DNA from: Flavobacteriales bacterium
GTDB lineage: Bacteria > Bacteroidota > Bacteroidia > Flavobacteriales_F > PHOS-HE28
Direction: 5' to 3'
NCBI GenBank assembly: GCA_016788405.1
Contig: JAEUSX010000253.1
Location: 1-36,348 of the forward strand
Length of the DNA: 36,348 nt
This document shows positions 8,800 to 13,113 of the stretch, one piece after another. The notes beneath the pieces are model-generated. The model was not told where the DNA came from, made no database searches, and worked only from the letters and a program-made list of their open reading frames with translations. The number at the start of each line of letters is the position of its first letter. Within the stretch, counting starts at the first letter, position 1. Both the position numbers and the translations under genes were made by a program.

Positions 8800-11205
8800 C
8801 TACTCCCACACCGGCTTCCCGTTCGTGCCGCCCTTCGCCTTGCGGCAATCGAGCTCCACGCCCAGGTCGCCTTCGGGCCGCTCGAAATCGCCGGTGCTGA
8901 TCTCGATGGTGGGGTCGGCGTACACCCTGTTCATATAGTAGCCGTAGATGGGCAGCGCGCTGTTGGCGCCCTGGCCCTTGTCGGTGGTGCTGAAGCGCAC
9001 GCTACGGTCCTCGGCGCCGGTCCAAACGCCGGTCACCAGGTCGGGGGTGATGCCGATGAACCAGCCGTCGCTGTTGTTCTGCGTGGTGCCCGTCTTGCCC
9101 GCCGTGGGGAACTTGATGTTCGCGTACTTCTGGCGGTTGCCCCAGCTGGTGCGCAGCCGCATGCCGGTGCCCACCACCTTGCCGGTGCTGGGGTTGTACG
9201 CGCCATCGGTGACGCCCTTGAGCATCTTCAGCATGATGTAAGCCGTACGCTCATCGAGGGCCTCGTAAGTCTTGGGCGTGATGTCCACGATGGTGTTGCC
9301 GTTCTTGTCCTCGATGCGCGTGAAGACGATGGGCTCGATGTACACGCCCTTGTTGGCGAAGGAGCTGAAGGCGCCGGTGATCTCCGAGAGTTTCAGGTCG
9401 GCCACGCCCAGGCAGAGCGAGGGCACGGGGTCCAGCGGGCTCTGCACGCCCATGTGGCGCGCCAGCACCGTGACGCTCTCCGGTCCGTACTGCTTCATGA
9501 GCCACGCCGTGATGGTGTTGAGCGAGTTGGCCAGCGCGTATTCCACGGTGACCATGCCACCGTACTCGCCATCGCTGTTCTCCGGGCACCAATCGGGCTG
9601 CCCTTCGGGCATATCGAAGCAGATCTTCTGGTTGGGCAGTTCGCGGCAGGGGTCCATGCCCTCGCGGATGGCGGTGGCGTAAACGAAGGGCTTGAAGGTG
9701 CTGCCCACCTGGCGGCGCGCCTTGTCCACATGGTCGAACTGGAAGTGCTTGAAATCGGGGCCGCCCACCCAGGCTTTCACGAAGCCGGTGCGCGGATCCA
9801 TGCTGAGCAGGCCGCTGCGCAGGAAGCTCTTGTAGTAGCGGATCGAATCCATCGGGCTGAGCAGCGTGTCGATCTCGCCCTTCCAGCTGAACACCCGCAT
9901 CTTCACAGGGGTGTCGAAGATCTTCGGGATCTCCGCCTCCTTAACCACGGGCCACCAGGCATCGCAGCCGCCCTTGTCGGGATCGCAGTGGTAATGCAAG
10001 GAGCCTTCGTGCTGCGCCTTGGTGATGTAGGCGGCTGGCCGCTCGCAGCTGCCGCATTGCTTGCCCACGAGCACTTTGTAGCGCGTGCTGCGTTTCATCG
10101 CGGTGGTGAGGATGGCCTGGATCTCGTCCTTGCTCACGCGGCTATCGAAGGGCCGATTCTTCTTTCGGGCGATGTCCTTGAAGAAGTCGGCTTGCAGCTC
10201 GTTGGCCAGGTGCTCGCGCACGCCCCATTCGGCGTAAGCCTGCATGCGCCGATCCAGGGTGGTGTAGATGCGCAGGCCGTCGGTGTACAGGTCGTACGGC
10301 TTGCCGTCGGCGCGCGGGTAGCGGAGCTTGCCATCCTCATCGGTGCTGCTCAGCAATTCCTGCACCTTCTCGCGCAACGTCTCCCTGAAGTAGGGCGCAG
10401 GTCCTTCGGTGTGGCTCACGCTCTGAAAGCGCAGGCCCAACGGCAGGGCCTTGAGCGAATCGTACTGGGCATCGGTGAGGTAGCCGTTGCGCCGCATCTG
10501 GTCCATCACCACCATGCGGCGGTGCAGCACGGTATCCACGCGGTAGGCCTTGTTCGGGTTGAAGAGCGCGGGGTTCTTGCACATGCCCACGAGCATGGCG
10601 GCCTCTTCGATGCGGAGCGAATCGGGCGTGGTGTTGAAGTAGACGCGCGCGGCGCTGTGGATCCCGACGGCCTGATTCACCCAATCGAAGCGATTGAGGT
10701 ACATGGCGATGATCTCGTCCTTGGTGTACATGCGCTCCAGCCGCGCGCTGATGATCCACTCCTGGAACTTCTGGAAAACGCGCCCGATCACATTGCTGCT
10801 GCGGTCGTGGAAGAGCATCTTGGCCAGCTGCTGGGTGAGCGTGCTGGCGCCGCCGCGTCCTCCAAGGAACACGGCCGCGCGCAAGGTGCCTCGCAGGTCC
10901 ACGCCGGCGTGCTCGCGGAAGCGTTCGTCCTCGGTGGCGATCAGCGCGTTGACCACGTTGGGGCTGATGCGGTCGTAATCCACCGGGATGCGGTTCTCCC
11001 GGTAGTACTGGCCCATCTGGGTGCCATCGCTGAAGAGCACGGCCGTGGCCAGGTCGCTGCGCGGGTTCTCCAGGTCCTCCACGCTGGGCAGGTCGCTGAG
11101 CGAAGCAGCCAGCAGCATGAGGTAGATGCCGAGCACCGGCGAGAGCACCAGTCCCCACCAGAGCAGGCGGCGCCTCTTCTTGCTGTTGGCCGTGCTTTTC
11201 TTCAT
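8800..11205 (-). CDS. mrcA: Penicillin-binding protein 1A, bifunctional, with a Cys4 insertion
   Basis: A bifunctional peptidoglycan glycosyltransferase/transpeptidase of 801 residues. A basic cytoplasmic N-terminus and one membrane anchor (about 14-36) are followed by the GT51 domain, with ATEDERFREHAG (catalytic Glu92) and GGASTLTQQLAK. The transpeptidase domain has SxxK (S502-T-F-K505), SLN in ANSLNT, and KTGT (K704) in AGKTGTTQNN. All three penicillin-binding motifs are intact. Residues 384-414 hold an unusual four-cysteine insertion (C384, C387, C407, C414) just before the conserved FDTPVKMRVFSW; see the finding. The gene follows gldH in the same direction with 94 bases between and has its own promoter-like box at 11213-11220. 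It is separated from cysS by 54 bases. Confidence 0.96.
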   Translation of the reverse strand: MKKSTANSKKRRRLLWWGLVLSPVLGIYLMLLAASLSDLPSVEDLENPRSDLATAVLFSDGTQMGQYYRENRIPVDYDRISPNVVNALIATEDERFREHAGVDLRGTLRAAVFLGGRGGASTLTQQLAKMLFHDRSSNVIGRVFQKFQEWIISARLERMYTKDEIIAMYLNRFDWVNQAVGIHSAARVYFNTTPDSLRIEEAAMLVGMCKNPALFNPNKAYRVDTVLHRRMVVMDQMRRNGYLTDAQYDSLKALPLGLRFQSVSHTEGPAPYFRETLREKVQELLSSTDEDGKLRYPRADGKPYDLYTDGLRIYTTLDRRMQAYAEWGVREHLANELQADFFKDIARKKNRPFDSRVSKDEIQAILTTAMKRSTRYKVLVGKQCGSCERPAAYITKAQHEGSLHYHCDPDKGGCDAWWPVVKEAEIPKIFDTPVKMRVFSWKGEIDTLLSPMDSIRYYKSFLRSGLLSMDPRTGFVKAWVGGPDFKHFQFDHVDKARRQVGSTFKPFVYATAIREGMDPCRELPNQKICFDMPEGQPDWCPENSDGEYGGMVTVEYALANSLNTITAWLMKQYGPESVTVLARHMGVQSPLDPVPSLCLGVADLKLSEITGAFSSFANKGVYIEPIVFTRIEDKNGNTIVDITPKTYEALDERTAYIMLKMLKGVTDGAYNPSTGKVVGTGMRLRTSWGNRQKYANIKFPTAGKTGTTQNNSDGWFIGITPDLVTGVWTGAEDRSVRFSTTDKGQGANSALPIYGYYMNRVYADPTIEISTGDFERPEGDLGVELDCRKAKGGTNGKPVWE

Positions 11206-11299: not shown

Positions 11300-11779
11300 T
11301 CAGGGCTGGGCGCTCCGCTCAATGCTCACCCCCACGTCGATGATGCCGGGCAGCGGGTTGTCGCGCATGGCCTGTTCCAGCCGGATGGTGTATTGACCGG
11401 GTGCCGGGAATCGGTTGCCGAGCTTGTAGAGCACCTTGGCGTCGCGCGTGCGGCTCGCCACGATGAAGCCCGTTCCCTTTCCCAGCCAGCGGCCCATGGG
11501 GTCGGCCAGCAAGCACTCCACCGTATCGCGCTTGCTGCGGCCACCGGGGCCTTCAAGGTCCACGAATAGGTAGAGGTTGCTGTAAGCGTATTCCGTGGTG
11601 TGGCGCACATCGATGTACACATCATGTGTGTTCACCGTATCGGTGATGGCGAAGGTGAAGGCGGGCTTCAGCGCATTGCTCCAGGCGCCATCGGGGATGG
11701 GCGCGTCGCTCTGGAACACGACGTTCTCCGCGCAGCCGCACAACAGCACCGATGCCGTGATCAACCAAGCACCCTTCAA
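11300..11779 (-). CDS. gldH: Gliding motility / T9SS lipoprotein GldH
   Basis: A 159-residue lipoprotein with signal MKGAWLITASVLLCGC; Cys16 is the expected lipidated residue, with an unusual Cys at position -2 of the lipobox. The body (VYIDVRHTTEYAYSNLYLFV, then GRWLGKGTGFI) matches GldH, which in Flavobacterium is required for gliding and supports the type IX secretion/gliding machinery. Presence of gldH together with T9SS cargo genes in this window indicates a working T9SS, though gliding itself cannot be inferred. The start codon overlaps the ricT stop by four bases (ATGA), so translation is probably coupled. The order ricT-gldH-mrcA is one I recall from other Flavobacteriales. Confidence 0.88.
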   Translation of the reverse strand: MKGAWLITASVLLCGCAENVVFQSDAPIPDGAWSNALKPAFTFAITDTVNTHDVYIDVRHTTEYAYSNLYLFVDLEGPGGRSKRDTVECLLADPMGRWLGKGTGFIVASRTRDAKVLYKLGNRFPAPGQYTIRLEQAMRDNPLPGIIDVGVSIERSAQP

Positions 11780-13113
11780 GCCGCTGGTGGTGTTGCGCCC
11801 CCGCCTTGCGGACGGTCACCACGTCCACGTCCGCGACGGCGCCGGTCGTTGCGGCCACCCGGCTGCCCCTCGGGGCGTGGGCCTTGCTGCGGGCGCTGGC
11901 CGCCTTGTGCGCGCTGCTGTCCGCCTTGTGCACCAGGCTGTCCGGAGGAAGCCGGCCTGCGGTCCCGGTCCCGGTTGCGCTTGCCGCCTCGGCCGCCGCC
12001 GCGCGATTTGATCTTGTTGTCGAAGCGTGTAAGCTCGTCCTGACCGGTCACGTTCTCGTAATCGGGCTGCTTCGTTTCGGGCGCCGGCTCATCGGTCATT
12101 TGGAGGTCCACTTCGGGGATCTCGCCCTCCTTGTTCTTCGCGAGGATCTCGCGCACCACATCGATGGGGAAGCCGGCCATGATCATGGGCTCGCCGGGCT
12201 TCTTGAAGCCGTACCACATCTTGCCCGTGAAGATGTCGGTCTTGATGTGCATGCCGGTGCCTTGCTGGGTCTTGAGCTTGGCGTTCTGCGAAGGGTAGCT
12301 CTTCACCGCCTCGATGTACATGTCCAGCTCGTAGTTGAGGCAGCATTTCAGCTTGCCGCACTGGCCGGCCAGCTTCTGCGGATTGAGGGCGAGCTGCTGG
12401 TAACGCGCCGCGCTGGTGGTGACACTCCGGAAATCGGTGAGCCAGCTGCTGCAGCACAGCTCGCGCCCGCAGCTGCCGATGCCGCCGATGCGCCCGGTCT
12501 CCTGCCGCGCGCCGATCTGCTTCATCTCCACGCGCGTCTTGAAGCGGTCGGCGATGTCGCGCACGATGCCGCGGAAATCGATGCGCTCCTCGGCGGTGTA
12601 GTACACGATGGCCTTGGTGCCGTCGCCCTGCATCTCCACATCGGTCACCTTCATGTCCAGCCGAGCGCCGCGCACCATCTCGCGCGCCACCAGCATCAAT
12701 TCATCCTCGCGCTTGCGGGCCTCGTGCCAGCGGTCGATGTCTTCCTGTGTGCTCTTGCGCAGCACCTTGCGCAGCTCGTAGGTGTCCACCGTGACGTTGC
12801 GGCGCGCCATCTGCGTGCGTACCAGCTCGCCGCTGAGGCTCACCATGCCCACGTCGTGGCCGGGGGCAGCGTCCACCGTGATCAGGTCGCCCGGCGAAAG
12901 CAGGATGCCGGTGGTGTTGCGGAAGAAGGCCTTGCGCGTGTTCTTGAAGCGCACCTCCACCCCATCGAAGGCCTGCTGCCCGTGTGGCAGGGGCACGCCT
13001 GTGAGCCAGTCGAAGACCCCGAGCTTGTTGCACCCGCTGCTGCTGCAATAGCCGTTGCTCTTGCACCCGGCCGGCTTGCCATCCGCGCCCACACCGCAAT
13101 TCCCGCATGCCAT
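11776..13113 (-). CDS. ricT: PSP1-domain protein RicT (YaaT-like) with RG-rich tail
   Basis: A 445-residue PSP1-domain protein. The N-terminus carries clustered cysteines (MACGNCGVG, GCKSNGYCSSSGCNK), and the core has the Cys motifs GSCGRELCCSSWL and GQCGKLKCCLNYEL typical of RicT/YaaT. In Bacillus RicT is part of the Y-complex that modulates RNA processing through RNase Y and binds an iron-sulfur cluster; whether that holds in Bacteroidota is not known. The last ~79 residues (from about 367) are a low-complexity Arg/Gly/Gln/Pro tail suggestive of RNA binding. The ATG at 13113 is 5 bases after a TATCTTCG box. The gene overlaps gldH by four bases. Core function is assigned by motif; the tail's role is inference. 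Confidence 0.88.
   Translation of the reverse strand: MACGNCGVGADGKPAGCKSNGYCSSSGCNKLGVFDWLTGVPLPHGQQAFDGVEVRFKNTRKAFFRNTTGILLSPGDLITVDAAPGHDVGMVSLSGELVRTQMARRNVTVDTYELRKVLRKSTQEDIDRWHEARKREDELMLVAREMVRGARLDMKVTDVEMQGDGTKAIVYYTAEERIDFRGIVRDIADRFKTRVEMKQIGARQETGRIGGIGSCGRELCCSSWLTDFRSVTTSAARYQQLALNPQKLAGQCGKLKCCLNYELDMYIEAVKSYPSQNAKLKTQQGTGMHIKTDIFTGKMWYGFKKPGEPMIMAGFPIDVVREILAKNKEGEIPEVDLQMTDEPAPETKQPDYENVTGQDELTRFDNKIKSRGGGRGGKRNRDRDRRPASSGQPGAQGGQQRAQGGQRPQQGPRPEGQPGGRNDRRRRGRGRGDRPQGGGATPPAA

Follow-up and report, generated by a model that had tools for sequence, protein, structure and literature searches.

A putative zinc-ribbon module between the catalytic domains of PBP1A-type cell-wall synthases in a group of Bacteroidota lineages

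A PBP1A-type cell-wall synthase encoded in the 36,348-nucleotide stretch of Flavobacteriales DNA analysed here (hereafter referred to as the window) carries a block of four cysteines, raising the questions of what this block is, whether it is confined to one lineage and what it might contribute to the enzyme. The open reading frame (8800..11205, minus strand) is open throughout and encodes 801 aa. Pfam Transgly (PF00912) matches residues 61–237 with 169.2 bits (cut-off 27), and Pfam Transpeptidase (PF00905) has its best stretch at residues 469–586 with 60.3 bits (cut-off 22.1); glycosyltransferase and transpeptidase domains on a single chain identify the product as a class A penicillin-binding protein (PBP). 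The NCBIfam model PBP_1a_fam (TIGR02074) ranks first among the 14 families listed for the synthase, and we use the label "PBP1A-type" because its score of 466 bits lies under the curated cut-off of 508.75. Residues S502 and K505, S561 and N563, and K704, T705 and G706, which we take to be the SxxK, SxN and KTG motifs, are invariant across 37 aligned proteins, in agreement with a first-pass annotation of the window that had reported an intact frame and intact catalytic motifs. The 50 matches listed in a fold comparison of the whole synthase model are class A PBPs, transpeptidases and glycosyltransferases. Upstream of the gene lie gldH, ricT and a holB-like gene, and downstream lies cysS; the next gene upstream, gldH (11300..11779, minus strand), encodes a gliding motility lipoprotein recognised by Pfam GldH_lipo (7e-34) and, over its cut-off, by NCBIfam TIGR03511.

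Four of the ten cysteines of the synthase form the block C384-x2-C387-x19-C407-x6-C414 (residues 384–414; 9964..10056, minus strand), with codons at 10054–10056, 10045–10047, 9985–9987 and 9964–9966, respectively. The pattern, together with the HYHC and CDPDKGGC strings, reads in translation exactly as first annotated. That annotation had also placed the block, as an insertion, in the transpeptidase half of the protein; it is indeed an insertion in a PBP1A-type protein, but it falls between the Transgly and Transpeptidase stretches, in an inter-domain segment outside the transpeptidase domain. Residues 384–414 thereby occupy the position, between the catalytic domains, of an ODD-like docking domain.

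From 196 loci, removal of four off-target loci and of duplicates left 123 non-redundant class A PBP sequences for comparison. The element is present in 88 of them, of which 84 have exactly four cysteines in the segment, three have four plus one, and one has a cysteine masked by N. The other 35 have none, eight of these being in our reading non-orthologous second class A PBPs, and a partial cysteine set occurs in none of the 123. The first pair is always CxxC in the 84 sequences with exactly four cysteines, and the second is CX4C in 42, CX6C in 41 and CX2C in one, with 15–20 residues between the pairs; two knuckle-type pairs, as in a zinc ribbon, are therefore found in all 84. Across 33 diverse inserts the mean column identity is 50%, and the invariant columns are G12, C15, C18, R20, C38, C45 and F61. 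Constant cysteines with sliding loop lengths fit a four-ligand site. Such a site, with its CxxC knuckle, might hold iron in a rubredoxin-like manner, with a part in electron transfer or in the sensing of iron. In rubredoxin, however, both pairs are CxxC, whereas here the second pair is CX2C in just one of the 84 sequences, and we consider an iron site scarcely credible.

Bacteroidota PBP1A-type proteins without the element have the same domain order and the same flanks (RY ... F-x-x-P-x-x-M-x-V-F-S-W type). The expectation from the first annotation that other PBP1A proteins would have a short stretch without cysteines at this place was borne out in 33 of the 35 cysteine-less sequences, but not in the remaining two (L042, family f9; L049, family f11), which have long, charged, cysteine-less inserts exactly at the place of the element. 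These two inserts make the site look like a hot spot for insertion that accepts differing modules.

Structure prediction with AlphaFold2 was carried out on 37 sequences. The synthase model is mediocre overall (mean pLDDT 65.6, pTM 0.48), and residues 381–430 rank among its better-modelled parts (pLDDT 82–90). The predicted order is the CxxC knuckle, a strand at 394–399, a turn, a strand at 402–407 ending on C407, the second (CX6C) pair and a strand at 417–419. Judging from the strand limits, residue 407 would pair near residue 394, adjoining the first knuckle; this would bring C387 and C407 to one end of the hairpin, a partial answer to the concern that the cysteines might lie far apart in a model. 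The Cryomorpha ignava protein (L102), which carries the element in its CX4C form, has predicted strands at 394–399, 402–409 and 412–417 with pLDDT 72–81 in an overall poor model (46.6). Both proteins are thus predicted to share with zinc ribbons a hairpin between the cysteine pairs plus another strand.

Searches of the 33 inserts against Pfam at E up to 10 matched 49 families, including zf_CopZ in 14 of the 33, although the inserts are homologous and member counts per family are consequently inflated and not independent. The best match was to Zn_ribbon_IS1595 (E 1.4e-4), and of the 25 families listed out of the 49, 15 bind zinc or metal according to their names or descriptions. No Pfam family, zinc ribbon or other, reached its curated cut-off with the 33 inserts, the listed matches of eight members all staying below theirs, and the insert of the window itself had no Pfam match even at E 10. 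A control in which the cysteines were fixed and the remaining residues shuffled matched 11 families, with one member each. Since these shuffled inserts also hit zinc-named families (zf-C17orf113, E 0.0034; Zn_ribbon_15, E 0.012), the cysteine pattern alone accounts for part of the zinc-family signal.

The element shares its CxxC, hairpin and second cysteine pair with the Pfam families Zn_ribbon_recom, Zn_ribbon_GRF, Zn_ribbon_TFIIS, Zn_ribbon_Top1 and zf_CopZ, and some inserts align over both cysteine pairs, that of L169 for example with the recom, GRF and TFIIS models, below curated cut-offs. Zinc beta-ribbon families are mostly intracellular, in contrast to an element that resides in a periplasmic enzyme. 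A sequence comparison of the insert profile with solved structures returned nothing significant; the best match (E 0.051) was ribosomal protein uS14, over one knuckle only, followed by zinc fingers and others. With an insert-only profile, 39 relatives yielded 22 matches whose E values were no higher than 4.9e-15, lying at PBP1A places within frames of 489–1051 aa; the eight other matches listed had E 0.017–0.093, and no donor ribbon was found in these relatives. A topoisomerase-type ribbon was considered as a source and the comparison dropped, PF01396 being present in two of 20 relatives and over its cut-off in one. Conservation of the cysteines, the predicted hairpin and the sub-threshold lean towards zinc ribbons support the original description of a zinc-ribbon-like insertion, and on the strength of sequence and models the element is probably a zinc ribbon.

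The four cysteines could instead pair up as two disulfides, bracing a small beta-hairpin without metal. The layout of the protein would place the segment in the periplasm, and 41 of the 58 relatives searched gave a DSBA-domain match, including 28 of 35 carriers (32 of the window's genus plus G045, G056 and G057). Elsewhere in the synthase, Cys529 and Cys540 (9586–9621) occur together in 50 of the 123 sequences and are both absent from 73, neither ever occurring singly, and this perfect co-occurrence suggests that disulfides may form in the protein. All 50 of these sequences also have Cys598 (9412–9414), and the three residues are likely to represent a disulfide or a second cysteine cluster in the transpeptidase domain. 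Against disulfides in the element, DsbB was found in none of the 58 relatives by a search that, as a control, detected it in E. coli and five other genomes, and VKOR was found in two relatives (G039 and G054), neither a carrier. The absence of both DsbB and VKOR from the 35 carriers favours metal over disulfides. Furthermore, seven carriers have no DSBA match, namely the three outside the genus and four within it (G005, G014, G028 and G031), although some of the genomes searched are incomplete. Independent disulfides should also vanish singly, whereas sequences with one pair number zero in 123, and the knuckle-type spacing and weak zinc-ribbon matches likewise speak for metal. We regard the disulfide reading as unlikely; in our weighing, zinc outweighs it between threefold and fourfold.

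Two further cysteines of the synthase are widespread with or without the element, Cys520 (9646–9648) in 120 and Cys787 (8845–8847) in 116 of the 123 sequences. The 58 relatives, with DsbB in none and VKOR in two, yet have proteins that hold disulfide-like cysteine pairs.

To describe the distribution of the element we used profile searches in which, for many genomes, only the first 14 candidates were scored (15 in the phylum search), so that the counts are minima. The order search comprised 45 genomes, all of the window's genus, and the element profile matched in 41. Of the four genomes without a match (G011, G019, G030 and G062), the first three are not counted as having insert-less genes, there being no full-length PBP1A match in them. 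The best PBP1A matches in these three genus-mates reach only E 2.7e-53, 1.2e-55 and 1.2e-17, respectively, and two of the three genomes are 95–97% complete, leaving synthase loss or an assembly gap. In the class sample, at least 68 of 395 genomes match the profile at E <= 0.001, and at least 56 of 395 match nearly the whole of it, at E 3.6e-19 or better. Of these 56 whole-element carriers, 16 belong to the window's genus, and the remaining 40 are spread over ten further families (10 in f5, 1 in f12, 7 in f23, 1 in f24, 14 in f33, 1 in f46, 2 in f52, 1 in f55, 2 in f65 and 1 in f75). All 40 were read and each has the four-cysteine block, with one cysteine masked by N in G176 (L178). The 12 weak matches (E 2.2e-4 to 9.2e-4) are of a different kind: ten cover just the last 21–22 of the 82 profile positions, one just the first 20, and one is a 59-aa frame with a stop; the block is absent from all eight of the 12 that were inspected (L189–L196). 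In the phylum sample, at least two of 395 genomes, the window's own among them, match at E <= 1e-6. The element is consequently no quirk of one genus, being shared by at least 11 families, and it is a minority trait in the class and phylum samples, far from the presence in most Bacteroidetes PBP1A proteins that would have spoken against a special insertion. On sequence and predicted structure, it is best described as a class A PBP accessory module that is group-specific and probably of zinc-ribbon type.

Phylogenetic trees were inferred with the insert columns left out, using 90 of the 123 sequences, with those of the window's own genus reduced to eight. A 48-sequence tree was hand-picked from the 90, and the set for the AU test comprised 82 sequences after exclusion of eight paralogue or long-branch sequences. 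The four-cysteine state needs four changes on the trees, three of them forced by well-supported branches, versus mean values of 28.2 (90 sequences) and 16.0 (48 sequences) when states are shuffled. Most carriers group together, with the cysteine-less L040 (G038) and L055 and L192 (both f19) among them, and f23 stands apart. A single clade of all 55 four-cysteine sequences was rejected (p-AU 5.1e-75, 82 sequences). A clade of these 55 plus the three nested cysteine-less sequences gave a borderline p-AU of 0.0437. These results may be compatible with a single gain followed by losses, with two gains or with a transfer to f23; we favour a single origin because the inserts resemble one another.

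These data also bear on whether the element does anything at all, since a near-neutral insertion, tolerated and self-folding, might have no role beyond leaving the enzyme undisturbed. The site takes other inserts, as in f9 and f11, most cysteine-less sequences have none, and three of the latter are nested among carriers in the trees. We nevertheless find this reading quite improbable: the four cysteines are kept in 88 sequences from 11 families while the remainder of the insert varies.

The best explanation as a whole, to which we give an even chance of being correct, is that the inter-domain segment contains a structural zinc ribbon, which would also provide a lineage-specific contact site. 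Under this model, a group of Bacteroidota lineages would carry a small zinc ribbon, inserted after the glycosyltransferase domain and before the transpeptidase domain, whose four cysteines would hold one Zn2+. The metal, presumably structural rather than catalytic, would lock the CxxC knuckle, the beta-hairpin, the second knuckle (CX2C, CX4C or CX6C) and the predicted third strand into a rigid periplasmic knob, which might offer a contact surface through which an envelope protein would position or activate the enzyme, as with ODD and UB2H in gamma-proteobacteria. According to PMC4632607, Lpo lipoproteins dock on these two class A PBP domains, LpoA on ODD of gamma-proteobacterial PBP1A and LpoB on UB2H of PBP1B; like the element, they are lineage-limited non-catalytic modules. 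No sequence relation between them and the element was found, and the element is far smaller. In an alignment with the solved PBP1a structure 4oon, the unaligned stretch (query 281–462 versus chain 245–394) contains the place of the element; this lends support to docking, as does the proposal that regulators dock on group-specific regions of class A PBPs (PMC4632607). By analogy of place and distribution, docking is the likeliest role for the element, but as a suggestion it is tentative and falls short of being probable.

The element might alternatively act as a reversible sensor of metal limitation or oxidative stress, the synthase being switched by zinc loss or thiol oxidation. Redox switching can occur at exposed zinc sites of the CxxC type, and an inter-domain place could influence both catalytic domains; strict retention of four cysteines, however, fits a structural site equally well, and the analysis gave no sign of switching, so that we regard a sensor as very unlikely. 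A metal-braced docking site, if that is what the element proves to be, would be uncommon as a periplasmic design and would suggest that Bacteroidota have a regulator of wall synthesis not yet known; metal bracing could also make wall synthesis in Bacteroidota dependent on envelope zinc. No description of the element was found in the literature searched, which included few subscription journals and gives weak evidence of its being unpublished.

A candidate partner, by position only, is GldH. In named records gldH lies directly upstream in 42 of 46 four-cysteine loci, and in the remaining four the sequence ends within 160 bases of the match start, so that the upstream side is not covered. A survey of further genomes, covering about 2–3 kb each (0.6 kb in one), found gldH upstream in five of six four-cysteine genomes versus three of 14 genomes without the block, counts that ignore kinship and were obtained with the window's own GldH as probe, which may miss remote homologues. 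That the periplasmic zinc ribbon docks GldH as an activator, in an Lpo-like Bacteroidota system in which a metal-braced contact ties wall synthesis to the gliding apparatus, is a long shot. The arrangement of gldH and ricT (11300–13113) upstream of the synthase gene recurs in most four-cysteine loci and in few of the surveyed genomes without the block.
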